Shown: one piece after another, positions 13,021 through 47,194 of the stretch
How positions within the stretch are numbered: position 1 is the stretch's first letter
Layout of the letters: each line of letters opens with the position of its first letter
Position numbers and translations under genes: made by a program
Notes under the pieces: generated by a model
Told to the model about the DNA's origin: nothing
Database searches by the model: none
What the model saw: only the letters and a program-made list of their open reading frames with translations
NCBI GenBank assembly: GCA_946886075.1
Contig: CAMPHR010000022.1
Location: forward strand, 1 to 47,382
From: an uncultured Novosphingobium sp.
GTDB taxonomy: Bacteria > Pseudomonadota > Alphaproteobacteria > Sphingomonadales > Sphingomonadaceae
Length of the DNA: 47,382 nt
Direction: 5' to 3'

Positions 13021-13056
13021 CCGTTTTTCGCCGGTCTGTAAAAGCTGGCGGAGCGA

Positions 13057-13809
13057 GTGACCATCAACGCTTCTGTGGGGCAGCCCGATATGGCCGATCC
13101 GGTTCTTCTCAATAATGTCGATCACGCGGATGTGCGGGTTCGCACTGGACATGGTGCCGAGTTTGGCGATGCGATCAACCTCGTCCGCGTCTTCGTGCCA
13201 GAGTTTGAGGAATTGCAACGCGAATATCCCATCCTGCTGCGCCGCACGGCTGGACAATCCCTTCATGCCGTGGTGCTGCTGGGGCTGGATCGGGATGAAA
13301 ATCTGTTCCTGGCCGATGGTGGATGGAGCGGCCGTTATGTTCCTGCACTACTGGAACGCGGCCCATTCTCGATCGGCGTTGCCGGGCAGGGCGCTGGCGT
13401 TTCCGGCAGCGAACCGATGATCCATATCGACCTGGACCATGTCCGGATCAGCAAGGACGAAGGTCATTCGCTGTTCCTGCCGCAAGGGGGCAATTCGCCT
13501 TATCTCGATCATGTGGCCGATGTGCTGCGCGCGATCTTCACGGGCGTCGAGATTGAAAAGACTATTTTCGCGGCGTTTGAGAAACATGGGCTGATCGAGC
13601 CGATCAGCATCGAGGTAAAACTGGACGATGCGCACCAGTATAAGCTGTCCGATTTCTGCACCATCAGCTTGGACCGGCTGATGCAACTGGACGGCGCCGC
13701 GCTGGAAAAGCTGCATCGCGCCGACTATTTTCGCGCTGCGATTTGGATCGCTTCGTCCTTGCGCAACATCAGCCGCCTGATCGATATGAAGAACGCGAAG
13801 GGCGGCTGA
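13057..13809 (+). CDS. SapC-family protein
   Basis: The 250-residue protein matches the SapC family (named after a Campylobacter surface-layer protein but widespread beside TonB receptors in sphingomonads and Caulobacter). Typical segments are RVFVPEFEELQREYPILL, LFLADGGWSGRYVPALL and the C-terminal LCTI/DFCTISLDRLMQL region. The GTG start at 13057 has a short-spaced GGCGGAG; ATG at 13090 is an alternative. It has no signal peptide. In related loci it stands between a TonB receptor, a cupin-like protein and a tryptophan-halogenase-like protein, as here. Its biochemical role is not known. Confidence 0.85.
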   Translation: MTINASVGQPDMADPVLLNNVDHADVRVRTGHGAEFGDAINLVRVFVPEFEELQREYPILLRRTAGQSLHAVVLLGLDRDENLFLADGGWSGRYVPALLERGPFSIGVAGQGAGVSGSEPMIHIDLDHVRISKDEGHSLFLPQGGNSPYLDHVADVLRAIFTGVEIEKTIFAAFEKHGLIEPISIEVKLDDAHQYKLSDFCTISLDRLMQLDGAALEKLHRADYFRAAIWIASSLRNISRLIDMKNAKGG

Positions 13810-13825
13810 ACGCGGGAAGGGTGTC

Positions 13826-14863
13826 GTGGCGATGGCGATCATGGGCATACGGACGAAGGAACTGACCGGCATCTCGCCGGATGCCATTCCGTTCGAGGAC
13901 CTGATCGCGGGTGATCGGCCCGTGATCCTGAAAGGCGTTGCGCGCGACTGGCCCTTGGTTCGCCATGGCCTGGAATCGGCGCAGGCGGCGATGCGCTATC
14001 TTTCCAGTTTTTATCAGGGGGCGCTGGTCACAACCTTCATCGGCGGGCCGGACGTCAATGGCCGGTTCCACTATACTCCCGATGTGACAGCGCTCAATTT
14101 CACCTCCGAACGCATGCGGCTTGATGCGTTTTTCGAACAGGTTCTGGCGCATGGCGACGTTTCTCACCCGCCCAGCTACTATGTCGGTTCGACCGATGTA
14201 GATAAGTATCTGCCCGGCCTGCGCGTCGAAAACGACCTAAAGCTGGATATTTCCCGTCATGCGAGCGCTCCGCCGCTGGTCAGCATCTGGATGGGAAATC
14301 AAACTGTCGCTTCGGCACATTGGGACAGTTTCCATAATCTCGCCTGCTGTATGGTGGGCGGCCGCCGTTTCACCCTGTTTCCGCCGGAGCAGGTGGAAAA
14401 CCTCTATCCCGGCCCGCTGGAACCCACGCCGGGTGGGCAGCCTGTGTCCATGGTGGATTTCGCCAATCCCGATCTTGAGCGCTTTCCACGCTTCGCAGAA
14501 GCCCTGAAAGCAGGCGAGGTGGCCGAACTGGAGCCGGGCGACCTGCTCTTCTACCCGCCGCTCTGGTGGCATCATGTAGAAGGGATCGGCAGTTTCAATG
14601 CGATGATCAACTATTGGTGGAGCGCCGCGCCGTTGTTCATGGACTCGCCGATGAATACGCTGCTCCATGCGATGCTGAGCCTGCGTGACCGGCCGGAGCC
14701 TGAAAAGCAGGCATGGCGCGCGATGTTCGACTATTATATCTTCGGCCCGTCGGATCGTGCGGCAGCACATCTCCCCGATCCCGCACGGGGCATGCTCGCG
14801 CCCCTGGACGATCTGCGCGCGCGGCGGTTGCGCGCGATGCTGCTCAACCGACTCAATCGGTAG
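13826..14863 (+). CDS. cupin-like (JmjC/FIH-type) protein
   Basis: The 345-residue protein resembles the cupin_8 family, relatives of factor-inhibiting-HIF hydroxylases. It has an HxD pair at His165/Asp167 (SAHWDSFHNL) and a distal His at 249 or 250 (FYPPLWWHHVEGIG), the Fe(II) triad expected of a 2-oxoglutarate oxygenase. It starts with GTG after AAGGG and follows SapC closely. The family is regularly found with SapC and the halogenase-like protein beside TonB receptors. A hydroxylase acting on a protein or small molecule is possible; the substrate is unknown. Confidence 0.85.
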   Translation: MAMAIMGIRTKELTGISPDAIPFEDLIAGDRPVILKGVARDWPLVRHGLESAQAAMRYLSSFYQGALVTTFIGGPDVNGRFHYTPDVTALNFTSERMRLDAFFEQVLAHGDVSHPPSYYVGSTDVDKYLPGLRVENDLKLDISRHASAPPLVSIWMGNQTVASAHWDSFHNLACCMVGGRRFTLFPPEQVENLYPGPLEPTPGGQPVSMVDFANPDLERFPRFAEALKAGEVAELEPGDLLFYPPLWWHHVEGIGSFNAMINYWWSAAPLFMDSPMNTLLHAMLSLRDRPEPEKQAWRAMFDYYIFGPSDRAAAHLPDPARGMLAPLDDLRARRLRAMLLNRLNR

Positions 14864-14881
14864 CGATACACTCGCGTCGTT

Positions 14882-16246
14882 TCAGGCAGCGGCCAGCCCG
14901 GAATTAACCGCGTCCAGTTCGCCGCTTTCACGCGCCTTCCTCCCATAGACCGCTTCGAACAGGGGGGTCGCCATCACCGTGGTGGCGATCGCCATCAATA
15001 CCATCATGGAAAAGAGCGTGGGGCCGATAATGCCCTTTTGAAGGCCGATATTGATGATGATGAGTTCCATCAACCCGCGCGAGTTCATAAGCGCGCCAAT
15101 GCCCAGCGCGGTCCGATTGTCCTCACCCGACAGGCGCGCGGCAGCGTAGCAGGCACCGAATTTGGCAAGGATGGAAATCATAAGGACGCCAAGCGCGACC
15201 AGCAGCAGCGGGATGGAATTGACCATGTCCATCCGGGTGTTAAGCCCCGAATAGGTAAAGAACATCGGCAATAGCAGCACGACGGCCAACGGTTCGACCT
15301 TGCGCTTCAGTTCCTGGACGAACAGCCCGCGCGGCATGCACGCGCCCATCAAGAACCCGCCGAAGATCGCGTGGATGCCGATCGCATCCATCAGGAACGC
15401 CGCGAAGCAGAACAGCATCATGGTGATCGCCAACACCTGCGGGCTCATCTCTCCTCTCGCTTCGACGATGCGTCCGAGTAGAGCCATCCAGCGGCGGCCG
15501 CACGTCATCATGAATCCCGCGAACAGGATCGCCCCACCAATCGCGATCACCGCCACGCCAGGGCCACCGCCAAAGGTGGCAAGGACGATCGCGAGCACGC
15601 ACCAGGACGCGGCATCGTCGAACGCGCCGGCTGTCAGGCTAAGCGTTCCGAGCGCACTATTGGCCAGACCTCGCTCATTGATGATGCGTGCCAGCATGGG
15701 AAAGGCGGTGAGGGCGATGCACGCGCCCATGAACAGGGTCGCGTTCGCCTGGCTGATCCCGGCGGTGAACAGCCCGGGTATCGTCAGCAGATAGGGGGTG
15801 ACCAGCGCAGCGAGGATGAATGGCGCGATGATCCCGGCGGCGGAGACGGTGGCCGCGCTCTTTGCCTTCGATCTGAAATGATCGAGCCGCAGTGTCAGCC
15901 CCACGATGAACATGTACAGGCCCACGCCCAGTTGGGCACCGACATAGAGGACGTTACGGGTTTCCTTAGGGAAAATCGCGTCCTGCAGGCCGGGCAGTAA
16001 CAGGCCGAACAAGGATGGGCCAAGGACCACGCCCGCGATCATCTCGCCCACCACCTGCGGCTGTTTCAACAGCTTCTGACCAAGCCAGCCGACCACGCGG
16101 CAGGTCAGGATGATCACCGCAAGTTGCAGGAAGAATCGGATGCTGTAGTCCGATGGCGCGTAGCTTGTAAGTGCATGCACTTCTGGCCCGTGGGGCGCGA
16201 AAATATCGCCTAGTGCATGCCCCGCTTGGCTCAGCCAATCAGCCAT
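14882..16246 (-). CDS. cation:proton antiporter (CPA2/KefB-like)
   Basis: The product is about 454 residues with some 12 hydrophobic segments and the CPA2 signature region QPQVVGEMIAGVVLGPSLFG. A conserved acidic pair appears near GAFDDAASW, as in Na+(K+)/H+ exchangers. I place the start at ATG 16246 (MADWLSQ), which has a strong ribosome site (GGAGGA); an upstream in-frame ATG at 16279 would put that site inside the gene. No C-terminal TrkA domain is present. It is transcribed against its neighbours and sits between the cupin-like and halogenase-like genes, which are usually adjacent. It may have been inserted and may be functionally unrelated. Confidence 0.9.
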   Translation of the reverse strand: MADWLSQAGHALGDIFAPHGPEVHALTSYAPSDYSIRFFLQLAVIILTCRVVGWLGQKLLKQPQVVGEMIAGVVLGPSLFGLLLPGLQDAIFPKETRNVLYVGAQLGVGLYMFIVGLTLRLDHFRSKAKSAATVSAAGIIAPFILAALVTPYLLTIPGLFTAGISQANATLFMGACIALTAFPMLARIINERGLANSALGTLSLTAGAFDDAASWCVLAIVLATFGGGPGVAVIAIGGAILFAGFMMTCGRRWMALLGRIVEARGEMSPQVLAITMMLFCFAAFLMDAIGIHAIFGGFLMGACMPRGLFVQELKRKVEPLAVVLLLPMFFTYSGLNTRMDMVNSIPLLLVALGVLMISILAKFGACYAAARLSGEDNRTALGIGALMNSRGLMELIIINIGLQKGIIGPTLFSMMVLMAIATTVMATPLFEAVYGRKARESGELDAVNSGLAAA

Positions 16247-16337
16247 TCCTGTCCTCCGTCCCTCAAATTTCCCAGGCATCTGCCGCGCCTTGCCGACATC
16301 ATCCCAACGCCGGAGGCAGGGAAATGCAAGCAGAAAC

Positions 16338-16353
16338 GTGAAAACGTTTACAT
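16338..16353. promoter_or_regulatory. candidate LacI-family operator, variant (site 3)
   Basis: GTGAAAACGTTTACAT is a near-palindrome centred on the CG typical of LacI-family sites. On the minus strand it matches the 2520/9721 operator at 12 of 16 positions. It lies between the divergent antiporter and halogenase-like genes. It may bind the same LacI protein more weakly, or a different LacI-family member. Confidence 0.55.
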
Positions 16354-16455
16354 TGTCACTTCGTGATCGGTATTAATGCCCGGTCGAAGGCGTGCTTCAC
16401 ACCATCAGGCGGTGCCGCCGCCAGAATGCGACGCCACGGTGCAGGAGAGGGCATT

Positions 16456-17940
16456 ATGGAAAATCAAGGGGTCAAGCGCGTCGTAATTGCCGGTGGCGGC
16501 ACCGCTGGCTGGATCGCCGCGGCGGCGCTCGTCACGCAACTCGGTCCGCTGCTCGACATCACGCTGATCGAGTCGGAGCAAATCGGGACCGTCGGCGTCG
16601 GCGAATCGACCATTCCCACCGCGCGGACATTCCATCGCATGATCGGGCTGGATGAGCGCGAGTTCATGCGTGAGACTGAGTCCACCTTCAAACTCGGCAT
16701 CCTGTTCGAAGATTGGGCAAGGATCGACGACAGCTATATCCACAGCTTCGGGATGATCGGCAAATCCACCTGGATGGCTGATTTTCACCATATTTGGATG
16801 GCCGCGCACGAGCAGGGGCTGGCGAGCGATCTAGGCGATTATTGTTTCGAACTTCAGGCGGCGAAGGCTGGCCGGTTCGCAACATCCGACGACGCCAACA
16901 TCAATTATGCCTACCATCTCGATGCCGGCCGTTATGCGCGTTACCTTCGCCATTTCGTTGAGGCGCGGGGCGTCACGCGGGTCGAAGGGAAGATCGTCGA
17001 GGTTCAGCAGAATGCGCAGAACGGTTTTATCGAGACGCTGCTGCTCGATTCCGACGCGCGTATCGAAGGCGATCTCTTCATCGATTGCACCGGCTTTCGA
17101 GGGCTTCTGATCGAACAGACGTTGAAGGCGGGTTATGAGGATTGGTCACACTGGCTGCCCGCCAACGCCGCATTGCCCTTGCAGAGCGCCTCGGTCGGCC
17201 CGGCTTTGCCCTATACGCGTGCGATGGCGCATCAGGCCGGATGGCAATGGCGCATTCCGCTACAGCACCGCGTCGGCAATGGCTTGGTCTACAGCAGCGA
17301 ATTCATGTCCGACGATGCTGCGGCCGATCTGCTTCACAGCCGTGTCGAAGGCGACATTCTGGTTCAGCCGCGCCCAGTCCGCTTTCAGGCTGGGCGACGC
17401 CGATCCGTATGGGAGAAAAACTGCGTGGCGCTCGGTCTGTCGAGCGGGTTTGTGGAGCCGCTGGAATCGACCAGCATCCACCTCATCATGATCGGCGTGA
17501 CGCGCCTGATCCAATCCTTCCCCTTCGGCGGGGCGAATGAAGCGGTGGCAACCCACTTCAACAACCAATGCCGACGCGAGCTTGAGAGCATTCGCGATTT
17601 CGTCGTGTTGCATTACAAGCTGACCGAGCGGGACGATAGCGAGTTCTGGCGCTATTGCCGCAACATGGAAGTGCCTGATTCCCTTGCCCAGCGCATTGCC
17701 CTATTCCGTGAGTCCGCCATGGCCTATCAGTCGCCGGACGATCTTTTTCGGGTGGATTCCTGGGTGCAGGTCATGCTGGGACAGCGCCTGAAACCCCGCC
17801 GGTATCACCAAGTTGGTCGCCTCATTCCCCGCGACCAGCTTTGCGACTCGCTCGGCCACCTCAAGACGAACATCGTCAATGCGGTCTCAAGCTTGCCCTC
17901 GCACCACAGCTTCGTGGAACAATACTGTCGGGCCAGTTGA
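16456..17940 (+). CDS. flavin-dependent tryptophan-halogenase-like protein
   Basis: I start at ATG 16456 because AGGAGAGG stands just before it, giving 494 residues; the open frame continues upstream to 16363 without support. The FAD motif is GGGTAGWI at 13-20. Lys79 lies in STFKLGI, at the same position as the catalytic lysine of PrnA/RebH. WQWRIP (263-268) matches the halogenase WxWxIP signature. SGFVEPLEST supplies the conserved acidic region near 334-337. So the main catalytic signatures are present. Relatives in sphingomonads and Caulobacter sit beside SapC, cupin-like and TonB genes in sugar loci; their substrates are mostly unknown. Confidence 0.9.
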   Translation: MENQGVKRVVIAGGGTAGWIAAAALVTQLGPLLDITLIESEQIGTVGVGESTIPTARTFHRMIGLDEREFMRETESTFKLGILFEDWARIDDSYIHSFGMIGKSTWMADFHHIWMAAHEQGLASDLGDYCFELQAAKAGRFATSDDANINYAYHLDAGRYARYLRHFVEARGVTRVEGKIVEVQQNAQNGFIETLLLDSDARIEGDLFIDCTGFRGLLIEQTLKAGYEDWSHWLPANAALPLQSASVGPALPYTRAMAHQAGWQWRIPLQHRVGNGLVYSSEFMSDDAAADLLHSRVEGDILVQPRPVRFQAGRRRSVWEKNCVALGLSSGFVEPLESTSIHLIMIGVTRLIQSFPFGGANEAVATHFNNQCRRELESIRDFVVLHYKLTERDDSEFWRYCRNMEVPDSLAQRIALFRESAMAYQSPDDLFRVDSWVQVMLGQRLKPRRYHQVGRLIPRDQLCDSLGHLKTNIVNAVSSLPSHHSFVEQYCRAS

Positions 17941-29322: not shown

Positions 29323-30848
29323 TCAGCCCTGGCGTTCGGCGGCGTAGCGCTCGGCCGCGCGGACCGCCGCCATCAGATCGTAGGCGGCGATTTCCACGGC
29401 GACTGTGCCGACCCAGAGCCGATCGTTCAAGTCAGCCAAATTGAACGTCTGGTTCCGTTCAAAGCCGACCTTCCCGACGCTGGATCGGAACGGCTTAAGC
29501 TGGTCGATAGGCGACGCGCGCGAACCGCAGCTATTACCAAATGCCAAATCCTGAAACCGACAGTCGCCTACCGGCGAGCCAAGGACATTGAGCGCCTGCC
29601 AAGAGGCCCACCCTGGGCAAGGTTTGCAAGAATTAGGGGGCAGTAATTCCTAGCTTTGCGGTGAATTGTGACTCGAACACGCGCCGAAAGCCGCGAAAAA
29701 GGCCTGGGGGTAAGTGCGCGGGTATCGGTCAACTTGAATTTTCAGAAAGACGAATAATAAGCTAAATCAAAGGTGCTATTTGAGTATCGTAAGCGCACCA
29801 CCTTTCAGAAAATCGAAAAAAGGCGGTTCAATAGATCATCTGCTCCCGACTGTGACACAAGACTGCCGCGCAATAGAGGGGCAAGAGCATGTAAATCTTT
29901 CAAATACCTTGCGGAAACGTGGGGCAAATTGTGCGCATAAGTGTCGCACAGACGGCATTGCGGCCTTGGCGACGAGGGGCGGTTTATCAATATTGCGAGC
30001 GGGTACCCCCGATCTCATCGACCGGGTGGTCCGGACCCACATTATCCGATCCCTGAAGACCACTTCGTACAGTCGCGTCACGATTGGTGAGGAAGGTCGC
30101 CTTCGAGATTGAGGCCCATTTCGATCAGGCATCCGTGATCGATGGGGAATTGTCGACGCTCACCGTCGAGCCGCGACCAGAACGGGTCGTTAACCCGATC
30201 GTCCGCGACCGTGCGCCGTGCAGTCCCGCTGCCCTGACGTTTGTGCGCTTCGCTTGAATGAGGAAGTGAGAGCCCTCGTCGCGCATCAGACGATCGGCGG
30301 GGCATTGTAAAGAAGTTCAGCAACTATGTCCTGCCCTGCTCCAGCAGCAGGGGTTACCATCTAGGGCAGAGATCCATGAGCATTGCGCCGAACTGACCAC
30401 CACCGCACGTCAATGTGAACGCCATCCCAAATTATCTCCCCAAGTCCTCGGCGCCGAACTTCCTTCACCATCGGCAGCAACCCTTATTTCGGCCTCGGCA
30501 ACATTTGCATGCGCAGCAAAAAGGCTGTCACAACTCGCGATCCACTGCCTCGCGGTGCGGCTCGTCGATGCCCACCTATGAGGAAAATTTTTCGAGTGGG
30601 GGGTCTTCGCTCTTGAGGCAGCTACGACAGCATCAACGAAATTCAGATTTTTTGAATAACGAAATGCGCATGATATTCCCCGATAAGGCGCGCATTTCTC
30701 CCACGAATAGGGAGATTGTGTCCTAAAAAAGCATGCGAGTGGCGAAAATATTTAAAAAATATGACTGGGCGGATTGCGCGGTGCCTGCGCAATAGATAAC
30801 AGCTGTCAACATTGTGAGTTGGCTTCTGCTGAATAAAGGAAAGCAGTC
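29323..30848. other. 1.5-kb stretch without an intact gene
   Basis: At 29323-29547 a minus-strand frame of 74 codons (LAFGNSCGSRASPIDQLKPF-like) recalls short conserved segments that I have seen near sphingomonad genes, but I cannot assign a function. From about 29600 the sequence becomes AT-richer. The frame at about 30090-30256 on the plus strand (FEIEAHFDQASVIDGELSTL) is protein-like and unassigned, with a stop upstream, so it may be a relic. The last ~100 bases must hold the promoter of the TonB receptor at 30849. Confidence 0.4.
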
Positions 30849-33269
30849 ATGGAAAAGGGAATGGGTCTTTCTGCACTTTTGTGCGGTGCAGCGCTGATCG
30901 TGCCGGCCGCTGCCTGGGCGCAGGATGCGGCCGACGGTGGAAGCGAGATCGTCGTCACGGCGACGCGCGAAGCCCGCTCGCTTCAGTCAGTGCCGATGAG
31001 CGTGAATGTGGCCACTGGTGAGCAGTTGCAGAAGCTGAACATTTTCGACGCCAAGGACGTCCAGCAGCTCGCTCCCGGCCTGGAGATGACCAACACCACG
31101 GGCCGTAACAATTCGACCACGCTGCGCGGCATCTCGTTTGATCCCGACCAAGGCACTGACCCGGCGGTTCAGGTCTATTTCAACGAAATCCCGACCGACG
31201 CGCAGACCGTCTACACGGCGCTCTATGACATCAAGCAGATCGAAGTTTTGCGCGGGCCCCAAGGCTTGTTGCGCGGTATCTCCGCACCGGCCGGTGCGAT
31301 CACCATCTCCACGGCCCGCCCCAGCTTCGATGAAATCGAAGGCTATGCGCAGGCTACCGCGACGACGCGCGCAGGCTTTAACGTGCAGGGTGGCGTTTCG
31401 CTGCCTTTTTCCGACAAGGTGGCGCTGCGGGTTGCGGCGCTGGTCGACGGCAATCGCCTCAACAATGTCCGCAACATCACGAATGGCGAACGTTCGCGCA
31501 GCCGCACCCAGAGCGCGCGCCTGACGTTGGGCCTTCGTCCGACGGATAACATCACCGCCTATCTGAGCTACCAGTATCTGTATGCGGACAATATCCAGCC
31601 GCAGCAGGTCATCGGCACGGGCAATAACTCGACATTCGAAGCAGGGCCGTTCCTTGGCGGCTTCCCCGTGCCCAATACGGCGACGCGTTCGGGTCCGCCG
31701 CTGGAAGCGGATGACTATGCCGCCGTCAGCGAGGGCCGGGTCCGCAACCAGAATGAAGGCCATATCATCAATCTGGCGGTCGATTGGGATTTGGGTCCCG
31801 CGACATTGTCGGCCGTTGGCGCGCATCAATATTCGCGCCTGAAGCTTCAGCGCGATCTCGACGTCGGCAATGCCGTTCCCAACTATATTTCCAATTCGAT
31901 GGGGTTCATTCCGTTCAAATATGACACGGTCGAACTGCGCCTGGCGACGAACAACAAGGAAGGCCTGGGCGGCGGCGTAGGCGTCTTCTACAACAAGATG
32001 GGCGGCACGACCCGGCTCAGCCAGCCGGGCGACAGCTTCTTCTTCCCGTTCGAACAGAATGACAGCCTGAACACCCTTGGCGTGCTGCCATATCTGCCGA
32101 TCGGCACCAACATCACCGTTCCTGTGAACCGGAGCATCTGGTCGTTCAACGCCAATGTCAATTTCCGCAGGGGCGGCCTGGCGATCGAAGGCGGTCTGCG
32201 TTACTCGATCATCAAGTCGGAAAATGTCAGCCGACTGAGCCTGAGCACGCCTGGCAACGCCTTGCTGTGCACGGGCGATCCACAAGTCGATGCGGCGACG
32301 TTTGGCTGTTTGCCCGGGTCCTACCCGGCGACGGATATCATCCCGGCTCGTCTGCGCAACACGTCTGACAAGCCGATCACGGGCGGCCTGACGATCAGCT
32401 ATCAGTTGATGCCGTCGATGAATATCTTTGCATCCTACGGCCATTCCTTCCGCGCTGGCAGTGTCAGCCCCGGCCTGCCGGACGGGCTGAGCGACGACCT
32501 GATCCTCACGCAGCCGGAAAAGACGGACTCGATCGAAGCAGGCGTAAAGGGCAGCTTCGCAGGCCGCCGCCTGCATTATGCGGTGTCGGTCTATTATCAG
32601 GAGCTCGATAACTTCCTGAATCGTTTCAGCGGCATCTATTACGAGTCCGCTGTAGCCGCACCTCCCACAGGCTATTTCGACTTCAATTATAATGGCGATG
32701 CTCGGATCAAGGGGATCGAAGGATCGCTGGACGGCCGCATTACGAAGGACTGGGACTTTGGCATCAGTGCTGCCTATACCCGCGCCCGTTATCGCAATGC
32801 GCTGCTGCCGTGCAACGACTTTGCAGGGACTGGCCGACCAAACCGGGACGGAACGGCGACAGTCACTGGGCCAGGCAATATCAGCTTTTGTAGCAGCAAT
32901 GGCCGCATTGGCGAGACGCCTGACTTCAGCCTGACCGCGAACACGGAAATACGTTTCCCGATGGATAGCGTCACGCCGTTCCTGCGCGGGTTGTTTACGT
33001 ACCGGCCCGGCTTCTATTCCGATCGGATCGACTATGATTATCGTAGCCGTGAAATGCTCAACCTGTTCGTCGGCCTTCGCGCCGAGGATAGCAGATGGGA
33101 ATTCACCTTGTTTGCGAAAAATGTGCTGAACCAGAAGCGGATCGCCAACATCAGCCAGGGCAACGCCGTAATCGGCACGTCCAGCGGCGTTGACTATGAT
33201 TCCGGCTACCGCCTGGTCAACGTCACCAACCCACGAGAGTTTGGCTTAACGGGCAACTTCAAGTTCTAA
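30849..33269 (+). CDS. TonB-dependent outer-membrane receptor
   Basis: The 806-residue protein has a signal peptide ending near AAAWAQ, a TonB box-like GSEIVVTATREARSLQSVPM, and plug motifs (LAPGLEMTNTTGR; TLRGISF; VYFNEIPTDAQT; IKQIEVLRGPQGLLRG). A beta-barrel follows, ending NFKF. This is the short-plug type common in sphingomonads and broader in substrate than the sugar-type receptor at 9836. AAAGGAAAG precedes the ATG. No metabolic partner gene is adjacent, so the substrate is unknown. Confidence 0.92.
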   Translation: MEKGMGLSALLCGAALIVPAAAWAQDAADGGSEIVVTATREARSLQSVPMSVNVATGEQLQKLNIFDAKDVQQLAPGLEMTNTTGRNNSTTLRGISFDPDQGTDPAVQVYFNEIPTDAQTVYTALYDIKQIEVLRGPQGLLRGISAPAGAITISTARPSFDEIEGYAQATATTRAGFNVQGGVSLPFSDKVALRVAALVDGNRLNNVRNITNGERSRSRTQSARLTLGLRPTDNITAYLSYQYLYADNIQPQQVIGTGNNSTFEAGPFLGGFPVPNTATRSGPPLEADDYAAVSEGRVRNQNEGHIINLAVDWDLGPATLSAVGAHQYSRLKLQRDLDVGNAVPNYISNSMGFIPFKYDTVELRLATNNKEGLGGGVGVFYNKMGGTTRLSQPGDSFFFPFEQNDSLNTLGVLPYLPIGTNITVPVNRSIWSFNANVNFRRGGLAIEGGLRYSIIKSENVSRLSLSTPGNALLCTGDPQVDAATFGCLPGSYPATDIIPARLRNTSDKPITGGLTISYQLMPSMNIFASYGHSFRAGSVSPGLPDGLSDDLILTQPEKTDSIEAGVKGSFAGRRLHYAVSVYYQELDNFLNRFSGIYYESAVAAPPTGYFDFNYNGDARIKGIEGSLDGRITKDWDFGISAAYTRARYRNALLPCNDFAGTGRPNRDGTATVTGPGNISFCSSNGRIGETPDFSLTANTEIRFPMDSVTPFLRGLFTYRPGFYSDRIDYDYRSREMLNLFVGLRAEDSRWEFTLFAKNVLNQKRIANISQGNAVIGTSSGVDYDSGYRLVNVTNPREFGLTGNFKF

Positions 33270-34589: not shown

Positions 34590-36215
34590 TTAGAATTTGA
34601 CGGGCGCGTCGATGCCGTAGGTGCGCGGCTCATTGTAAATGCCTGTCGGACCTGTGGACCCGTAGGCAAAGCCGGCGCGGTAGAATACGTGCTGTTCGTT
34701 GAACAGGTTGCGCGACCAGAGTGACAGTTGCAGCTTCGCCTTCGATTGTAGATCGATATCCGCAAGGGCCACCCGGCCGTTTACCACGAAGGACTTGTCT
34801 GTAAGATAGGTTCGGCGCTGGAATGGAAGCCATTGTCGCCGCCGCCGTCCAAATGCGCCCGGATCGTTGTCCACTCCAGCGGAAGCTCGTAGTCGATGGC
34901 TACACTATAGGCATGTTCCGGCGTTGAGGAGAGATAGACCGTCTGCAATTCGTCGAACAGTAACGGATTGGGTGCCGGACGAAGTTTACTGTATGTGTAG
35001 GCATAGCTGCCGGTGAGCGTAAGGCCCGTGACCGGCGCAATCACGATATCGGCCTCTATGCCTTTGAGCTTGCTGATGCCGCGCGCGTTCACCGTCTCGA
35101 TGGAGTAGCGGCCAGTATTGAAGTCGATGTTCAGGAAGTCGATCTGCTGGTTTTTGTAGCGGGTGGAATAAGCAGCCAGGTTCAACCGGACATGGCGGTC
35201 GAACAATTCACTCTTGAGCTCGATTTCGGTGGTCTCGACCTCTTCCGGATCATAAGCCCGGTAGGTGAAAGAGCGGGCGTTGGCGCCCCCCGCACGATAG
35301 GCGGTACCCCACTTGGCGTAGATGTTTACATTATTGGAGATGTCGATGCCGCGATGGCCATCGGATCGACGCGAGAGGCATTTGTACGAAAGCTGTAATC
35401 GGTATCGGCGCCGTCGACAATGAACAGGTCGCCATGCTTTTTCTCGCTGGTGTAGCGCGCACCCGCAGTAAGGTGCAGACGATCGCCCAACAGCGGCGGC
35501 GTATATGTCGCCTGCTCGAATGTCACGAAGCTGTTGGTTTCTGAATTGCTGGCTCGAGATGGGGCGACTTCGGCGAGTGACAGGATCGGCAGGGGCGTGT
35601 AGGCCGTGCCGTCGGCATTGAATTGCAAAGTGTTCGGCACGTGGGCGATTTCTTCGCCCTTTTCGTGGAAATAATATAGCCCTCCGACGAAATCCACGCG
35701 GGGGAAGTGGCCGAGCAGTTGAAGCTCCTGGATGAACTGATCCTGCTTCACATCGGAAAGGCTATAGCGGCCGAACTCACCATTTGGCTCGAAACGGGTT
35801 TCGTTGATACCGCCATTGTCGAACTGGGTCTGGCCGAGCTTGCGATAGGCGGAGATCGAGCGAAGATCGATCTGGTCCGTTGCCTTCCAACCTATATGAA
35901 CAGTGTGGCCATGCGTTTTGCCCAGACTTTCTTGCAGCCTCACGCCGACATTGGCGACGTGGCCCGGCCAAGCTGAACGGTGTAAAGTGGCGGGAGGGTC
36001 ACAGTCGGATTTTGTTCCAGCAATTGATTATAATGGGGCGCGGTGCCGTCACGTGCGACATCGAAGCTGTAGTCGGCACTGAAACGGTCCGAAGGCTGCC
36101 ATAACACCATCGCGTGTAGGCTGCGGCGGTCATATTGGTTGAAATCCGCCTGGCCTGCTCGCGGGTTATCGACCGTACCATCCCGCTTGAGAAGCGCCCG
36201 GATCGATTTGTGTCG
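34590..36215 (-). pseudogene. TonB-dependent receptor, 5'-truncated and frameshifted
   Basis: Several minus-strand frames join into the barrel of a TonB receptor: RDGTVDNPRAGQADFNQYDR, ARDGTAPHYNQLLEQNP, RLQESLGKTHGHTVHIGWK to LTAGARYTSEKKHGDLF, NVNIYAKWGTAYRAGGANA, ELFDRHVRLNLAAYSTRYK, and the end RTYGIDAPVKF. Frame changes lie near 35970, 35360 and 34800. The signal peptide, TonB box and plug are absent because the similarity starts abruptly near 36215. It is next to the dead phosphatase, and the two probably decayed together. Confidence 0.85.
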
Positions 36216-40326: not shown

Positions 40327-40803
40327 ATGCCTATCGGTTTGGATCAGACGGACCGCTCAATCCTGCGCTTGCTGCGGTTGAATGCCAGGCGGCCGAATTC
40401 TGAAATCGCTGAAGAGGTCGGCCTTTCGCCCTCAAGTTGCCATCGGCGGATCAAATTGCTGGAGGATGCAGGCGTCATTCGTGGTTACACGGTGCTGACC
40501 AGCCCTCTGCGAGTGGGGGAAAGCAGCGTGAACATATTGGTTCAGGTCACGCTGGACAGGCAGACGGAGGATTATCTCGCCCGGTTTGAGCACGCAGTGC
40601 GGCAATGCCCGGAAATTCGCGAATGTTTCCTGATGACTGGCGGCACCGACTATTGGCTGCGCGTCGAAACGGAAAGCGTGGCTGCTTATGAAATCATCCA
40701 CAGCGAAGTCCTGTCGCGCATGCCGGGGGTGGCGCGGATCAATTCAAGCGTTGCAATGCGTGACGCCCTGAGCCCGCGCTCGACCGGGCCTAGAAGTCGC
40801 TGA
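40327..40803 (+). CDS. Lrp/AsnC-family regulator of D-alanine catabolism
   Basis: The 158-residue protein has an N-terminal helix-turn-helix (LDQTDRSILRLLRLNARR; IAEEVGLSPSSCHRRIKLLE) and the RAM ligand-binding domain (ECFLMTGGTDYWLRVETES; LSRMPGVARINSSVAMRD). It is divergent from alr-dadA, the usual place of DadR-type activators that sense L-alanine. Confidence 0.93.
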   Translation: MPIGLDQTDRSILRLLRLNARRPNSEIAEEVGLSPSSCHRRIKLLEDAGVIRGYTVLTSPLRVGESSVNILVQVTLDRQTEDYLARFEHAVRQCPEIRECFLMTGGTDYWLRVETESVAAYEIIHSEVLSRMPGVARINSSVAMRDALSPRSTGPRSR

Positions 40804-41128
40804 AAGCGGCGTGCGAACGCAATCGGCGGGCGTCAGCGGATCGGCGCAGAAGCCCAGCGCATAATTGCTGATGCTGAAGCCGATCAGACGCTCAGCTTTG
40901 GTCAAACCTTCGGATAAGGCGCGGGGCTCCAAGTTGGCTAACGCCAACGTTTGTGGGGAGTTTCGCCCTCTACATACGGCTGAAATTATGCAATATTTGT
41001 AATTCGGCTACAGTTGCCGACTGTCAACTTTTGGTCCAAATTGCGGCCGCATCCCTTCGAATCGCGAGGGGTCGAACCGCCGCGCGCGGGCGATCCGAGC
41101 GAGACATGTCATATCAATGGAGTGCCTG
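40804..41128. other. intergenic region with a TetR-type site
   Basis: No intact gene. A minus-strand frame that overlaps the end of the Lrp gene (about 40800-40947, with LIGFSISNYALGFCADPLTP) looks protein-like but is not recognised and has no ribosome site. The right half becomes AT-rich and holds the 41013-41028 palindrome and the promoter of the gene at 41129. Confidence 0.4.
41013..41028. promoter_or_regulatory. candidate TetR operator (site A)
   Basis: GTTGCCGACTGTCAAC belongs to a three-copy set, GTTG-N6-GTCAAC, with 5 of 6 symmetric arm bases (GTTGAC/GTCAAC ideal). It is about 100 bases before the gene at 41129. Confidence 0.7.
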
Positions 41129-42196
41129 ATGACCACCGATATTTCCGACCAATTCCGCCCGTTTGCGCCGCCCTATGTGATCGAGAACGCCTATACGGAA
41201 GATCAGCGTCAGCGGCTGTTCAAGGTCGTGCGGGAGAATGGTCCCTGGCCGCTCATCCTGGCCGAGAATTTCAAGTCGCCCGAGGAAGTTATCGCTACCG
41301 TCGGTGGCACGGTTCCTGAGGGCGTGACTCTCACATGGGACATGATCCTGCAAGGCAGCGGCACGTTCCGGGGATATATCGCCCGCCAGGGGGTCTGCTT
41401 CTATCCTGAGCTTGATGACTGCTATTATAATTCCAAGTTCCTGGAGATGTCGCGCAACTATTGGGGCGCAAAATATGCCGAACCAGAAACGTTCCTGATC
41501 AACATTCAGGGACCGACCCTCCTTGGCGGACCGCCGCATCTGGATGGCACCGTCTTCCGTGGGATGACCATGGAAAACACGCCGATCTGGCTGCTCCTGA
41601 TCATGGCCAAGTCCCGCCTGTTCGAAAACTGGCGGAGCAAGAAGATGCAGGTCACCGGCTGGTATTATAAAGGCAATATCGGTGGCGGGTTCAACTATTG
41701 GCCCGATGGTCCGCGTGGAGAACCCAAGCAGATCACCGCGCCCATGTGGGGCCGTGCGGTCGTTGCCGAAAACGAGATGATGTTCCATCACGCCCAAGCG
41801 ACCGGGCCGGTCGCGATGCGTCGTTCCGAAGGCCTCGACATCAGCAGCGTGATGGCACCTGATCCGACGGTCGAAGGTGGCTGGCGGATCGAGACCAACG
41901 GCGTGGTCAACCAGCAGCTACCGGCAGATGAAGTTCGCCTGCTGGTTCACTGGGGCGCACGGGTGTTCATGGACATGGCTGACCTGAAGCGCACGTTCGA
42001 CCACACGGACGACATCACGCATGACAAGGCTTTGAACATGCTGATAGACGAAGCCCGCAAGCGTGGCGCTCAGTTCGAAATGCCGACCGATCCGCTGACC
42101 GATCGTCCGTTCATCGCCATGCTCGCCCAAACTTTCGCTGTAAATGGCCCGGCGAACATCCCGGCCGACATGGATGAGGCGCCGCTCGCCGCTTGA
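41129..42196 (+). CDS. unrecognised protein with a 2-oxoglutarate-oxygenase-like HxD...H...R pattern
   Basis: I choose ATG 41129 (355 residues) because GGAG stands six bases before it; an upstream ATG at 41117 overlaps that site. I do not recognise the family with certainty. What can be seen: GGPPHLDGTVFRG with His137 and Asp139, a second His at 220/221 (MMFHHAQATGP), and Arg at 231/232 about 11 residues later. This order and spacing match the facial triad plus 2-oxoglutarate-binding Arg of Fe(II)-dependent oxygenases. Aromatic-rich segments (YYNSKFLEMSRNYWGAKY; GWYYKGNIGGGFNYWPDGP) could line a pocket. There is no signal peptide. It is a single-gene unit with its own terminator and shares a palindrome with the TonB receptor and TetR promoters. 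Confidence 0.65.
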   Translation: MTTDISDQFRPFAPPYVIENAYTEDQRQRLFKVVRENGPWPLILAENFKSPEEVIATVGGTVPEGVTLTWDMILQGSGTFRGYIARQGVCFYPELDDCYYNSKFLEMSRNYWGAKYAEPETFLINIQGPTLLGGPPHLDGTVFRGMTMENTPIWLLLIMAKSRLFENWRSKKMQVTGWYYKGNIGGGFNYWPDGPRGEPKQITAPMWGRAVVAENEMMFHHAQATGPVAMRRSEGLDISSVMAPDPTVEGGWRIETNGVVNQQLPADEVRLLVHWGARVFMDMADLKRTFDHTDDITHDKALNMLIDEARKRGAQFEMPTDPLTDRPFIAMLAQTFAVNGPANIPADMDEAPLAA

Positions 42197-42232
42197 TCAG
42201 CGACAATCGGTTACATGGCAAGATTGAAGTCG

Positions 42233-42266
42233 ATGGCGGGCCCTTGTGGCTCGCCATTTGCTTTTT
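42233..42266 (+). terminator. strong rho-independent terminator
   Basis: ATGGCGGGC (42233-42241) pairs with GCTCGCCAT (42249-42257) over nine pairs including one G-U, with a seven-base loop. It is followed by TTGCTTTTT. It ends the transcript of the gene at 41129. Confidence 0.85.
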
Positions 42267-42367
42267 CCGAGAATGCGTAAATGCGATTCTGGCTGACAAT
42301 ATTGCAGCTTTTCCGGAACATCGGTGGATCATCACACGACGAGGGCAAATAATTCAGCTTGACAATG

Positions 42368-42383
42368 GTTGAAATACGTCAAC
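42368..42383. promoter_or_regulatory. candidate TetR operator (site B) before the TonB receptor
   Basis: GTTGAAATACGTCAAC belongs to the same GTTG-N6-GTCAAC set. A TTGACA at 42359-42364 lies just upstream, so a bound regulator would cover the promoter of the receptor at 42530. From 42390 to 42529 I see only leader sequence. Confidence 0.7.
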
Positions 42384-42529
42384 TATCGAAAGCGGCGATT
42401 GCAACGGTTTGCAGTCGGCGGAAATGCTGACTGCACGAAAAAAAGCCGAGATTGCCGAACGGAGCCGGCAACTGAGCCGGGGGCGGCGATGGCCATATGG
42501 GGCATTGCTACAGAAGGGGATTAGCAGTG

Positions 42530-45070
42530 ATGGGATCGGTTCACATTGGCATGAATCTTTTGCGCGGAGCCGGGATGACGGCATTGTGGGTTGCTGGCGC
42601 CGCGCAGGCGCAGGTACAAGCACCCGCTGATCCGAGCGGGAGTGCGAACGCATACATCGGCGATATCGTGGTGACGGCGCAGCGCCGCGACGAGCGTGCG
42701 CAGGACGTGCCTATCGCGATCACGGCGTTCTCGCCGGAGCGTCTTCAGCAGCAAGGCATCACGCAGCCCCAGAATTTGCAGGCGACTGTGCCGTCGCTGG
42801 TGGTGGGCACTAACGGCACGCCCTCGCGAGAAGCGCAAAGCTTTACGATCCGCGGGCAGGGCGCGACCTTTCAGGCATCGCCTGGCGTCGTTGTCTATCT
42901 AAACGAAGTGCCCTTGCCTGCCCCGATCTCCGTTCCTCAACAGGGCGGCGCCGGTAATTTCGTAGACCTGGAAAATCTTCAGGTTCTGAACGGACCGCAA
43001 GGCACCTTGTTCGGGCGTAACACGACTGGCGGCGCGGTCCTGCTTGTTCCCAAGAAGCCGACTAACGACTTTGAGGGCTATGTTCAGGGTAAGTTCGGCA
43101 ATTACGACAACAAGGAGCTTGAAGGCGCGATCAATGTTCCGATCGTTGACGACAAGGTTCTGCTGCGGGTTGCGGGTGCCTATCAAGATCGTGATGGCTA
43201 CACGCACGACGTGATCTGGAACACCGACCGTGATAATTTGCATTGGTATTCCGGCCGTGTCGGACTGACGCTGAGGCCGACCGAAACTTTTGAAAACTAT
43301 ACCATGGCCTATGGTTCGAATTCACGGACCCATGGCACCGGTACGATCAACACGCATCTCAACGTTGCTGCTCTTGCGCAGGCCGGGCTGCCCATTGACC
43401 AAAACACCTTCCTTCCTTTCTGCGTCGAAGGACCGACCATCCCCGGCTTTAGCGCATCATGCGACGTCTACAGGGCGGCCAGCGCCGAAGCGGCCGCGCG
43501 AGGACCACGCGAGACGGCGCACGGCATCAACTCTTTTCAGAGAACGAAGACTTGGGGGATAAGCAATACTTCAACGCTGAATTTGAACGAAGAACTGACG
43601 CTGCGTAACATCATCAGCTATCAACGCTTCAAGACGACATATAGCATTGACAGTGACGGCACCATTTTCCATTTCGATGATGGCGATCCAAGAAGCTACC
43701 CGGCTCCTGGCGTTGTCACCTTGCCTGGTGATGGCACTCCGATCACCTATCTGAATGCGTCATCCACCCGCCTGCCGCGAGACCATATCAAGGTCTTTAC
43801 CGAGGAACTGCAGCTCCAGGGCGATTTGTTCGACAAGTTGCTTACTTTCACCGCCGGTGCATTCTATTATGATCAGCGTCCGGCCGGGACTCAAGGTGCG
43901 GGTGCGACTGGCTTTTGCCCGGCCTTGTTCACCGGCGACCCCTTGGTTTGCGGCGCATATGACATCAGATATGCCATCACCAGTACGTCGAAAGCGTTAT
44001 ATGCGCAGTCGACATTGGACCTGGGGCTGGTTTCGCCTGCACTGCAGAACCTGAAGATTACAGGTGGTATTCGCTACACTTGGGATCGCGTCCGTGGTTC
44101 TGCCGGTTTGTATCAGGCAGTCGCTCCCGGAACATTCTTCTGCTTCGCCGACAATACGTTAGCCACAGACGCGGCCGGCTGCGGGTTCAGCGCCGATCTG
44201 AAAACCAATGAGCCAACATGGAATATTGGCGTCGATTACAGATTTTCGCCTGAACTTCTGGTATATGGAAAGATCAGCCGGGGCTACAAAGCCGGTGGTA
44301 TAAATGCCAACGCGGTATTCACTACCACGCGCACGTTCCCGCCCGAGTTCGTCACTTCCTATGAAGCGGGCTTCAAGTCGGATGTACGATTGGCCGGGAT
44401 GCCGCTTCGCCTGAACGCCACTTATTATTATCTGACCTACAAGGGCATTCAGCGCGCTGCGGGCGACTTCAATCCCACGACCGGCGCAGCAGGGGCGCGA
44501 GTTCTGTCTGCAGACGCGCGCATTCAGGGCATAGAAGCGGAAGCATCGCTGCGGCCGATCCCAGGCGTCGAGATCGGCGGTACGTTCAGCTACACAGATG
44601 CCAAGTATAAGAAATATGAATTCGTGCCGAGCAGCCCGGAGCAGGATTGCACCGGAAACGTCATCAGCGCCCCGGCGACCCTGAACCTGACCTGCATTCC
44701 CTTCCAATATGTGTCGCCGTACATCTACAGCTTCCATGTGTCCGCGGAGCAGCCCCTTGGCGGCAATCTCGGTACGCTCGCGATGTTCGTGAACTATTCA
44801 CACACTTCGGCGCAGCATACGACTGGGACGAGCCTTCCCGCGAGCGAACCGGGGGAACGGCTTGAGGCGTTCGGAACGCTGAACCTGTCGCTGGATTGGC
44901 GTAATGTCGCGGGCAGCAGTGTTGATGTGGGCTTCTATGCGACCAACCTTACGAACAAGCTGTACCGGGTCAGCAACAGCGGCACCTACGGCAGCCAGTT
45001 CTACACTGCGACATTGTACGGCGAACCGAGAATGTACGGGGTGCGGCTTCGCTACTCGTTCGGGAGATGA
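42530..45070 (+). CDS. TonB-dependent outer-membrane receptor
   Basis: I start at ATG 42530 (846 residues), preceded by AAGGGG and followed by a signal peptide ending near GAAQAQ; the frame is open from 42497. TonB box-like GDIVVTAQRRDERAQDVPIA, plug motifs (LQATVPSLVVGTNG; FTIRGQGATFQASPGVVVYL; LENLQVLNGPQGTLFGRNTT) and a long barrel ending RLRYSFGR are present. This is the sphingomonad type often linked to aromatic, steroid or terpenoid compounds, though substrates vary. The TetR-type palindrome upstream and the VOC gene downstream suggest uptake of the compound used by this group. Confidence 0.93.
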   Translation: MGSVHIGMNLLRGAGMTALWVAGAAQAQVQAPADPSGSANAYIGDIVVTAQRRDERAQDVPIAITAFSPERLQQQGITQPQNLQATVPSLVVGTNGTPSREAQSFTIRGQGATFQASPGVVVYLNEVPLPAPISVPQQGGAGNFVDLENLQVLNGPQGTLFGRNTTGGAVLLVPKKPTNDFEGYVQGKFGNYDNKELEGAINVPIVDDKVLLRVAGAYQDRDGYTHDVIWNTDRDNLHWYSGRVGLTLRPTETFENYTMAYGSNSRTHGTGTINTHLNVAALAQAGLPIDQNTFLPFCVEGPTIPGFSASCDVYRAASAEAAARGPRETAHGINSFQRTKTWGISNTSTLNLNEELTLRNIISYQRFKTTYSIDSDGTIFHFDDGDPRSYPAPGVVTLPGDGTPITYLNASSTRLPRDHIKVFTEELQLQGDLFDKLLTFTAGAFYYDQRPAGTQGAGATGFCPALFTGDPLVCGAYDIRYAITSTSKALYAQSTLDLGLVSPALQNLKITGGIRYTWDRVRGSAGLYQAVAPGTFFCFADNTLATDAAGCGFSADLKTNEPTWNIGVDYRFSPELLVYGKISRGYKAGGINANAVFTTTRTFPPEFVTSYEAGFKSDVRLAGMPLRLNATYYYLTYKGIQRAAGDFNPTTGAAGARVLSADARIQGIEAEASLRPIPGVEIGGTFSYTDAKYKKYEFVPSSPEQDCTGNVISAPATLNLTCIPFQYVSPYIYSFHVSAEQPLGGNLGTLAMFVNYSHTSAQHTTGTSLPASEPGERLEAFGTLNLSLDWRNVAGSSVDVGFYATNLTNKLYRVSNSGTYGSQFYTATLYGEPRMYGVRLRYSFGR

Positions 45071-45108
45071 TGTGAAGTCGCCGCGAGATCAATTCTAACT
45101 AAAGAGCG

Positions 45109-45519
45109 ATGATGATGTCAGATGACGTGAATAAGGCAATTCCACTGGGCTTCATGAAGCTTGTCGTGCAGGATCTCGACAAGGTTGCCGCTTTCTACGG
45201 GGCCGTGTGCGGCCTGATCGAGGAGGCGCAGGCCGATGCGGATATTGCTGGCCGTCCCATCCGGGAACTTTACTTCAAGTCGGATCCGCCGGGCACGGGG
45301 AACTTCACGCTGACGAAATTCCTCGACGTGGAGAAGTCGGCCACAGAGTCGGTTATCCTGGGGTTTATCGCTCATGACATCCACCGTTTCGTGGAAGACG
45401 CCGTCGCTGCAGGTGGGGTCGTAGTGATGGCCGTTCAAGCTGACCCGGACCATGGTGTATATGTTGCCTTCGTCAAAGACGTCGAAGGCAATCTCGTCGA
45501 GGTGGTCCAACTCATGTGA
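45109..45519 (+). CDS. VOC-superfamily (glyoxalase/dioxygenase-like) protein
   Basis: The 136-residue protein has the paired beta-alpha-beta-beta-beta modules of the vicinal-oxygen-chelate fold (GFMKLVVQDLDKVAAFYGAV; GFIAHDIHRFVEDAVAAGG; YVAFVKDVEGNLVEVVQLM). The C-terminal Glu in NLVEVVQ is a usual metal ligand, but the first ligand position (FMKLV) is not His, so metal binding is doubtful. ATG codons at 45109, 45112 and 45115 are all possible starts. It follows the TonB receptor after 38 bases, so it is probably co-transcribed. Confidence 0.88.
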   Translation: MMMSDDVNKAIPLGFMKLVVQDLDKVAAFYGAVCGLIEEAQADADIAGRPIRELYFKSDPPGTGNFTLTKFLDVEKSATESVILGFIAHDIHRFVEDAVAAGGVVVMAVQADPDHGVYVAFVKDVEGNLVEVVQLM

Positions 45520-45595
45520 GGCATGTGGCCGCTATGTGTATATGAGATCGGCTGTCCTGAGACATACGACGCCTGGAGGCTTTTGGGTCAGGTGG

Positions 45596-45626
45596 AAGGG
45601 TGGAGTTGCATTGCAGCTCCACCCTT
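45596..45626. terminator. long perfect hairpin between convergent genes
   Basis: AAGGGTGGAG (45596-45605) pairs with CTCCACCCTT (45617-45626) over ten perfect pairs around an 11-base loop that itself holds TGCA-T-TGCA. It sits between the convergent VOC and nitroreductase genes. It is probably a two-way terminator, although T-runs are weak. Confidence 0.7.
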
Positions 45627-45670
45627 GCTCATGTTGGCTCATCCGATCAAGGTTGGGCGCCGCCGCCTAA

Positions 45671-46252
45671 TCAGCCGCGGAAATTGCCGGAATAGGCAAG
45701 TTCATCAAGCGGCTTGCGATCGCTCGGCTGTTCGCGCTCCTGAAGCTTTTCCGGGAGATTGGCAGGGTCGCCCATCCGACCGATCGCGACGGCTGCTTCG
45801 ATGCGGAAACCATCCGGAATGCCAAGTTCAGTCCTGGTCTTGTCCATGTCGATCCCGACCATTCCGTGGGCGTGATAGCCAAGTAGGTGCGCTTGGAGCG
45901 CTATGGCCGACCAAGCCGCGCCCGCGTCGAAGCTATGCGAATGGCTGGGTTTGTCGGGCGCGCCCATCGTGGTTTCGCTGACGATGAATAGAAGCACTGA
46001 CGCTTCCTTGGCCCAGACCGCATTGAATGGGATCAGCAGGTCGAGGAAACGCTTCCAGTTCGCTGTATCGTCACGCGTAGCATAGAGAAAGCGCCAGGGC
46101 TGGTAATTGAAGGAGGACGGCGCCCAGCGTCCGGCATCCAGGATCGTGCGCAGGTCTTCAATTGGGATGGTGGACCCGTCGAATGCGCGCGGTGACCAGC
46201 GGTGCAGGAACATCGAATCCAATGCCGTGTCGGTCTGCCGGGTGGTCGTCAT
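45671..46252 (-). CDS. nitroreductase-family flavoprotein
   Basis: The 193-residue protein starts like FMN-dependent nitroreductases (HRWSPRAFDG, the RxSxR FMN-phosphate site; GRWAPSSFNYQPWRFLYATR). It has the central GAAWSAIALQAHLLGYHAHGMVG segment and a C-terminal VAIGRMGDP. These enzymes use NAD(P)H to reduce nitro groups, quinones or enones. It is divergent from the TetR gene and shares its palindromic site, so it is likely a member of that regulon. Confidence 0.92.
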   Translation of the reverse strand: MTTTRQTDTALDSMFLHRWSPRAFDGSTIPIEDLRTILDAGRWAPSSFNYQPWRFLYATRDDTANWKRFLDLLIPFNAVWAKEASVLLFIVSETTMGAPDKPSHSHSFDAGAAWSAIALQAHLLGYHAHGMVGIDMDKTRTELGIPDGFRIEAAVAIGRMGDPANLPEKLQEREQPSDRKPLDELAYSGNFRG

Positions 46253-46322
46253 GTCCTTTTCTTCCTTTATCAGAGTTTCACCAGGGCATTTCCGCGCCCC
46301 TCGCCAAGACGCTTGACTAACT

Positions 46323-46338
46323 GTTGGCGTATGTCAAC
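46323..46338. promoter_or_regulatory. candidate TetR operator (site C)
   Basis: GTTGGCGTATGTCAAC, the third copy of GTTG-N6-GTCAAC, lies between the nitroreductase and TetR genes. A TTGACT at 46313-46318 is adjacent. Its place beside the regulator gene is the reason for naming the TetR protein as the likely ligand. Confidence 0.75.
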
Positions 46339-46516
46339 TTGCGAGAGTCCTGATCCGGCATGAGACAGGAAGAGTGTAGGCGAGCTCTGGATAACGGGTT
46401 ATCCGCTTCCTTGCAGCCGATGTTGCCGGAGTGAATTACAGGATGTCAGCATTTCATCATCCAAGGATATGTTGCCTAAACTTTTCATCGATCCAAATCA
46501 GCGCTACGGGGGGAGC

Positions 46517-47194
46517 ATGACCGACCAGAAGGTAAAAAAGGCCCAACTCGTTGCCCCCCCTCGCCCGGGCGTATATTCGCGAGGCTCCGATACTGTTGAC
46601 GCCATCCTGAAAGCAGCGTCGCAGGTTCTGGTTGAGGAAGGCGCATCAGCTTTCACCCTTCGCCGCATCGCAGCGCAATGCGGTATGAAGGTCGGAAACG
46701 TCAGCCGACATTTCCCGCGCAAGGAAATGCTGGTGCAGGTCCTGCTGGAAGAATTGCTCACTCAAACGGTCGGGGAGGCGAGGAGCAGCCTTGCCAGTCT
46801 CGGGATACCCGCCGAAGAAGCGCTGGCGCTCGTCATCGGCGGCACTCTTGACGAAACCAAGACGAAGAAGATGACCCATTTGTTCACGGAATTGTGGGCG
46901 ATGGCGAACCATAACCCGTTTGTCGCGGAACGGCTCGAGATGGTCTATCAGTATATGCACGATCTGATGGCGTCATATATCGCCGAATTGAACCCAGCGC
47001 TGTCGCCTGCCGAGGTGAGCGTCGTGGCCCTGTTCATCAACACATCAATCGAAGGGTCAACGATATTGGCTGGCCATGGCAAGCCTTGGGAATCCATGAT
47101 GCCGCAGCTTAAGGATTTCGCCGTCAAATCCATGGTTCATCTTGCCAAGACGATCACGCCGGAAGACGTGAGAGGCCTCCGGCCCGCAGCATGA
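46517..47194 (+). CDS. TetR-family transcriptional regulator
   Basis: I start at ATG 46517 because GGGGGGAGC lies just before it; the frame is open from 46469. The 225-residue protein has a TetR helix-turn-helix (AILKAASQVLVEEGASAFTL; RRIAAQCGMKVGNVSRHFPR) and an all-helical ligand domain. It probably represses itself, the divergent nitroreductase, the receptor at 42530 and the gene at 41129 through the shared palindrome. The 188 bases after it hold no gene that I can support. Confidence 0.92.
   Translation: MTDQKVKKAQLVAPPRPGVYSRGSDTVDAILKAASQVLVEEGASAFTLRRIAAQCGMKVGNVSRHFPRKEMLVQVLLEELLTQTVGEARSSLASLGIPAEEALALVIGGTLDETKTKKMTHLFTELWAMANHNPFVAERLEMVYQYMHDLMASYIAELNPALSPAEVSVVALFINTSIEGSTILAGHGKPWESMMPQLKDFAVKSMVHLAKTITPEDVRGLRPAA

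Follow-up and report, generated by a model that had tools for sequence, protein, structure and literature searches.

Organization of the cluster and its palindromes

The 47,382-base stretch analysed here (the window) belongs to contig CAMPHR010000022.1 of an uncultured Novosphingobium sp. and carries, toward its right end, a gene cluster that includes a TetR-family regulator and in which three intergenic regions each hold one copy of the palindrome GTTGNNNNNNGTCAAC (GTTG-N6-GTCAAC). A preliminary description of this DNA, made from the letters alone, had read the palindromes as marks of a compact TetR regulon. The same operator recurs beside TetR orthologues in other genomes, which supports the regulon, and it tracks the type of recognition helix in the TetR protein.

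The cluster begins on the plus strand with a gene for an oxygenase with the 2-oxoglutarate (2OG)/Fe(II) fold, whose family has no Pfam model (41117..42196, likely start 41129), assigned from its predicted fold and invariant residues. On the same strand follow a TonB-dependent outer-membrane receptor (42497..45070, likely start 42530; Pfam PF00593, E = 1.2e-34, and PF07715, E = 5.3e-14) and a VOC/glyoxalase-fold protein (45109..45519; PF00903, E = 2.9e-7). A nitroreductase-family protein is encoded on the minus strand (45671..46252; PF00881, E = 1.3e-20), and the regulator, with an Arg-type recognition helix (GNVSRHF), again on the plus strand (46469..47194, likely start 46517; PF00440, E = 1.3e-10, and PF13977, E = 1.8e-7). 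The likely starts were read from ribosome-binding sites and orthologue lengths. These family searches agree with the earlier assignments of the TetR, TonB receptor, nitroreductase and VOC proteins, and the N-terminal helix-turn-helix of TetR scores 41.3 bits with PF00440 against a cut-off of 24. The VOC gene has no site of its own; it starts 38 bases after the stop codon of the TonB gene and is probably part of the TonB operon.

The three palindromes are exact, lie where they had been reported and agree beyond chance, as had been claimed. A search of both strands of the window yielded three exact matches, every one intergenic, against 0.02 expected from 100 dinucleotide shuffles, none of which reached three. 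The first (GTTGCCGACTGTCAAC, 41013..41028) precedes the oxygenase gene, and the second (GTTGAAATACGTCAAC, 42368..42383) precedes the TonB receptor gene, with TTGAC starting 9 bases upstream of the operator. The third (GTTGGCGTATGTCAAC, 46323..46338) lies between the nitroreductase and TetR genes, with TTGAC starting 10 bases upstream; a palindrome is present near the regulator's own gene, and its sequence is conserved.

A syntenic cluster is found on contig NZ_OBMU01000001.1 (L001) of the closest relative, Novosphingobium sp. Chol11 (assigned to Sphingobium in more recent papers), where it has four sites and a PhyH dioxygenase gene divergent from the oxygenase gene. The three site-bearing intergenic regions are 65–76% identical between the window and Chol11, and the palindromes with their adjacent bases stand out as conserved. 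The first and third operators align with the Chol11 sites L001:6896 and L001:12194, and the second is identical in Chol11. The intact Chol11 site L001:6812 aligns with GTTGGCTAACGCCAAC (40933..40948), a putative decayed operator that was found when mismatches were allowed, is still symmetric and has a position weight matrix score of 16.1. Beside it, 55 bases on the minus strand (40833..40887) are 83.6% identical to L001:5958-6012, within the Chol11 PhyH gene (L001:5851-6744). This PhyH gene has been lost from the window, where the fourth site has also decayed.

A weaker operator-like site, GATAACAGCTGTCAAC (30795..30810), scores 17.0 with an 11-site matrix, which by chance would give 0.3 sites above 14 in 47 kb, and 18.8 with a matrix of seven cluster sites only. 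It lies 38 bases upstream of the start of a second TonB-dependent receptor (30849..33269, plus strand; Pfam TonB_dep_Rec_b-barrel and Plug), and both window receptors carry plug and β-barrel domains (PF07715, PF00593). The Chol11 orthologue of the second receptor (87% identical) has GTTGACAGTTGCTAAC likewise 38 bases before its start, scoring 18.7 with the 11-site matrix, and the receptor is a possible member of the regulon. The three exact sites are thus real, but the set holds more, at 40933 and 30795; with over three sites and members that are partly scattered, the word compact no longer fits.

To the left of the cluster lie genes for an Lrp/AsnC regulator (40327..40803), an alanine racemase and a D-amino acid dehydrogenase, as identified by Pfam. 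Two short minus-strand open reading frames (ORFs; 34784..35943) resemble, by eye, pieces of a broken TonB receptor. Further left (9836..17937), a large ORF, receptor-like by eye, precedes SapC, Cupin_8 and tryptophan-halogenase-like genes.

The operator in other genomes and the TetR recognition helix

Chol11 served as proxy for a genome-wide motif scan. The genome contains the exact motif at 14 positions and a reversed control pattern at 4. Eight of the 14 stand before regulon-type genes: four inside the cluster and four distal ones. Of the distal ones, that in L013 precedes a TonB receptor gene and that in L024 a luciferase-like monooxygenase gene, while the site in L014 separates an oxygenase paralogue from an MFS gene and the site in L015 an FMO-like gene from an SDR gene. 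Three TonB receptors have sites in Chol11, that of the cluster and two further ones. The six other positions, close to the number of control matches, comprise five within ORFs (L012, L016, L018, L019, L025) and one, L017, situated 54 bases upstream of an unrelated ORF, so that the check for frequent hits at unrelated genes proposed in the preliminary description leaves the regulon standing. With the 11-site matrix the eight regulon-type sites, which were part of its training, score 20.4–28.2 and the six others 5.4–19.7. A pattern allowing two mismatches matched 637 times per strand, too often to be useful. Outside its training set, which likewise did not include the window site 30795 and its Chol11 counterpart, the 11-site matrix picked out in Chol11 L075:8665 before a second luciferase-like gene (21.9) and a weak site at L075:7114 (16.0), 83 bases from the L014 site. 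It also picked out sites in L079, from a plasmid of the Sphingobium strain TomTYG64, and in L139-L144, which are stretches from three genomes.

Among 94 genomes of the genus, TetR orthologues are found in Chol11 (G001, 89% identical), G349 (86%), G381 (68%) and G383 (68%). G349 preserves the cluster and its sites (L139), with one site between TetR and nitroreductase, as in the window and L001. The clusters of G381 and G383 (L142, L143), whose gene kinds were read from likeness to the family-searched window and Chol11 genes, hold TetR, luciferase-like, MFS, nitroreductase and TonB receptor genes, to which that of G381 adds VOC, SDR, oxygenase and PhyH genes. Sites lie at most, not all, of their gene junctions; the matrix scan found none upstream of the G381 TonB receptor. 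The clusters around a second TetR group (L079, L140, L141, L144) contain PhyH, TonB, luciferase-like and SDR genes (by Pfam for L079), often with two sites spaced 25–26 bases. Its member L141, from G349, matches the TomTYG64 plasmid at 99.995% identity over 20 kb and represents the same locus.

The recognition helix of window-type TetRs reads GNVSRHF or GNVTRHF, and other homologues have Tyr or His instead of Arg. Eight of nine distinct loci with an Arg-type TetR have at least two intergenic sites scoring at least 16 (six of seven without the two training loci, the window and L001), whereas none of 22 loci with a Tyr- or His-type TetR has two and only two have one (L080, L153); the latter counts are of intergenic sites, a few more matches inside genes being excluded. 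Twenty Markov sequences of 20 kb contained no site scoring at least 16. In L001 a spurious short ORF put two true sites inside a gene in this count. L143 and L144 overlap by 5 kb and three sites are listed twice, but both TetRs keep at least two sites without them. The genus search also gave 29 short loci. Its 26 Tyr-type loci, of 3.6 kb (the 22 include four of these TetRs), contain no site; two of its three Arg-type loci have one, and the longer stretch L143 around the third holds five. A related palindrome, TTGA[CT]-N4-[AG]TCCAG, is present at 12 of 19 Tyr-type loci versus 0 of 8 Arg-type loci (L145 left out), although this pattern was chosen after first being noticed in the loci.

An unnamed family of predicted 2OG-fold oxygenases

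The 359-residue oxygenase protein has no sequence match in Pfam, NCBIfam or the PDB. Across 42 aligned sequences, H141-x-D143, H224 and R235 are invariant, corresponding to the HxD...H metal triad and a later Arg for 2-oxoglutarate. The predicted model (predicted local distance difference test score 87.1, predicted template modelling score 0.86) matches 2OG/Fe(II) oxygenases with their double-stranded β-helix fold. Foldseek returned 25 rows with E up to 0.001, all of them enzymes of the 2OG/Fe(II) superfamily by title or as AlkB-type enzymes; PHD2, AsqJ and OkaE are 6–15% identical to the window protein in the rows listed. From these residues and the predicted structure, the protein is by fold an oxygenase of an unnamed family, which supports the earlier label of possible oxygenase.

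Relatives number 367 proteins at E up to 1e-3, and the best 120 of the 367 have no functional name. The 3.7-Mb Chol11 genome alone contains 13 paralogues; upstream of one of them, by 41 bases, lies GTTATCGATCTATAAC (L104:4404), a related GTTATC-type palindrome scoring 16.9. The exact motif is found in 0 of 10 other oxygenase loci (L002-L011), several of which by eye carry other TetR-like genes. In L002, L007, L009 and L078, and partly in L003-L006, L010 and L011, the family stands, mostly as judged by eye, near a TetR-like gene, a VOC-like gene and a gene for a protein of about 660 residues, annotated as cyclohexanone monooxygenase in L078, which together look like a recurring module. L010 is a contig of a metagenome-assembled genome labelled Klebsiella pneumoniae, possibly a binning error. 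This large unnamed family is worth assaying whatever the substrate.

Proposed regulation, possible substrate and known systems

We propose, with a probability of roughly 85%, that TetR (46469..47194) acts as a dimeric, ligand-responsive repressor of an uptake-and-oxidation set through GTTGAC-N4-GTCAAC. The dimer would bind this palindrome with its AT-rich flanks and would block RNA polymerase, since a TTGAC -35-like element stands shortly before many of the sites. At 16 of 29 collected sites TTGAC starts 8–10 bases away on one strand, so the operator would lie over the promoter spacer. The sites at 41013, 42368 and 46323, with the weaker ones at 40933 and 30795, would control one set consisting of the two TonB receptors, the 2OG-fold oxygenase, the VOC protein, the nitroreductase and TetR itself, joined in relatives by PhyH dioxygenases, luciferase-like monooxygenases and an MFS transporter, and in Chol11 by the FMO/SDR pair. 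On meeting a substrate or early product, TetR would come off the DNA, and uptake and oxidation would start together. The sites, their conservation, the downstream genes and the tracking of the recognition helix are observations, whereas binding, repression and induction, like all that is said of the substrate, are inferences.

Several observations weigh against this proposal. TTGAC is missing 8–10 bases away at 13 of the 29 collected sites, and a generic σ70 scan gave no promoter-like pair at the operators and three in the region, with 2.9 expected. One Arg-type TetR, in L145 (49% identical), is the exception among the nine loci, with no site scoring at least 16. In Chol11, the matrix of seven cluster sites gives the four distal sites 15.9–22.9 and the six other positions 5.9–18.7, ranges that overlap, and L018, the position scoring 19.7 with the 11-site matrix, sits inside the terminal part of an unrelated ORF. 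The 13 oxygenase paralogues have two clear sites and the one odd palindrome at 16.9, with nothing above 13 at the other ten. In a tree that left out the TetR rows L028, L034, L037 and L042, the Arg type fits a single origin with modest support (85/77), and the match between helix and operator therefore amounts to roughly a single event. An initial look at TetR homologues in L027-L054 turned up one weak match (L050) and no convincing motif nearby, which spoke against the proposal at the time and was later explained by their helix type. Finally, TetR may be an activator rather than a repressor.

Judging from the kinds of genes in the set, the compound would have to be imported through the outer membrane and oxygenated repeatedly. 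Within the proposed regulon, a steroid-like inducer and substrate (a bile salt, sterol, sapogenin or breakdown product) is possible, if tentative. Chol11, with the same gene set, degrades bile salts (PMC5754482). The four genus genomes with the closest TetR (G001, G349, G381, G383) all hold an orthologue, 85–100% identical, of an HsaC-like dioxygenase of Chol11, which at 80% identity or more is present in 15 of the 94 genomes. The hypergeometric probability of 4.5e-4, without kinship correction, is too good because the genomes are related, and n is 4. This dioxygenase is the only match to the HsaC family in Chol11, at 281 bits against a cut-off of 450, and is thus a probable, not certain, steroid-ring dioxygenase; its co-occurrence is a weak hint of a steroid-like compound. 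The match of the G349 locus to the TomTYG64 plasmid also speaks for such a compound, but that strain is linked to PMC10653915 by its strain-name series, and its name is absent from that paper's main text. A wider scenario strikes us as doubtful: that in this sphingomonad TetR clade a Tyr-to-Arg change of the helix shifted the operator from TTGAC-N4-GTCCAG to GTTGAC-N4-GTCAAC, capturing a new regulon for the import and multi-oxygenase attack of steroid-like compounds, centred on the 2OG-fold family with its 13 Chol11 copies.

Nitroreductase and VOC families often serve detoxification, and in Chol11 one of the sites is shared by an MFS gene, but a detoxification or stress set (nitroreductase, VOC, efflux) in place of catabolism is unlikely, given that TonB receptors import and that three of them in Chol11, along with several kinds of oxygenase, point to use of the compound. 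That the palindrome serves some other regulator, be it a further TetR or a factor of wider scope, with the neighbouring TetR a bystander, is likewise unlikely: the Lrp/AsnC gene is also close by and L018 is a high-scoring match away from the set, yet Arg-type TetRs have sites next to them even where the cluster is built differently, Tyr-type homologues lack them, the exact motif is missing at the ten other oxygenase loci, and the site between TetR and nitroreductase is common to the window, L001 and L139.

Literature searches found no published account naming this operator or regulon, although one may exist. Among known systems, KstR and KstR2 have a palindromic operator. They are TetR-type repressors of sterol genes in Actinobacteria and, in controlling catabolic genes, resemble the role proposed for the window TetR (PMC8399759). 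The window protein is only remotely KstR-like, scoring 18.8 bits with NCBIfam NF033703 against a cut-off of 280, well short of the equivalog. PheR of Sphingobium sp. SHPJ-2 represses an oxygenase operon, and TonB receptors rise in the pheR mutant (PMC13273656); the likeness lies in one repressor over an oxygenase operon with TonB receptors linked to it. PheR differs in that it is of the IclR type, has phenanthrene as its effector and depends on an essential GCAACG core.

A further comparison is with TetRs near amine-dehydrogenase-like genes (most of L081-L088 and L146-L154; the name is a reading of the sequences by eye), which belong to the clade of the window TetR and are 45–57% identical to it. 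Many of these loci share the type of palindrome, with TTGAC and GTC half sites, but they differ in the Tyr of the helix, in the palindrome TTGAC-N4-GTCCAG and in their other neighbours. In L081-L086, L088, L149 and L152, a palindrome of the latter type accompanies a Tyr-type TetR near such genes, often just upstream of a gene. The earlier view proves largely right: this is a known kind of TetR regulon, whose new parts are a defined operator, an enlarged and partly scattered gene list, a member lost from the window and an unnamed oxygenase family, and whose regulator, precise operator and target genes can be tested in the deposited laboratory strain Chol11.

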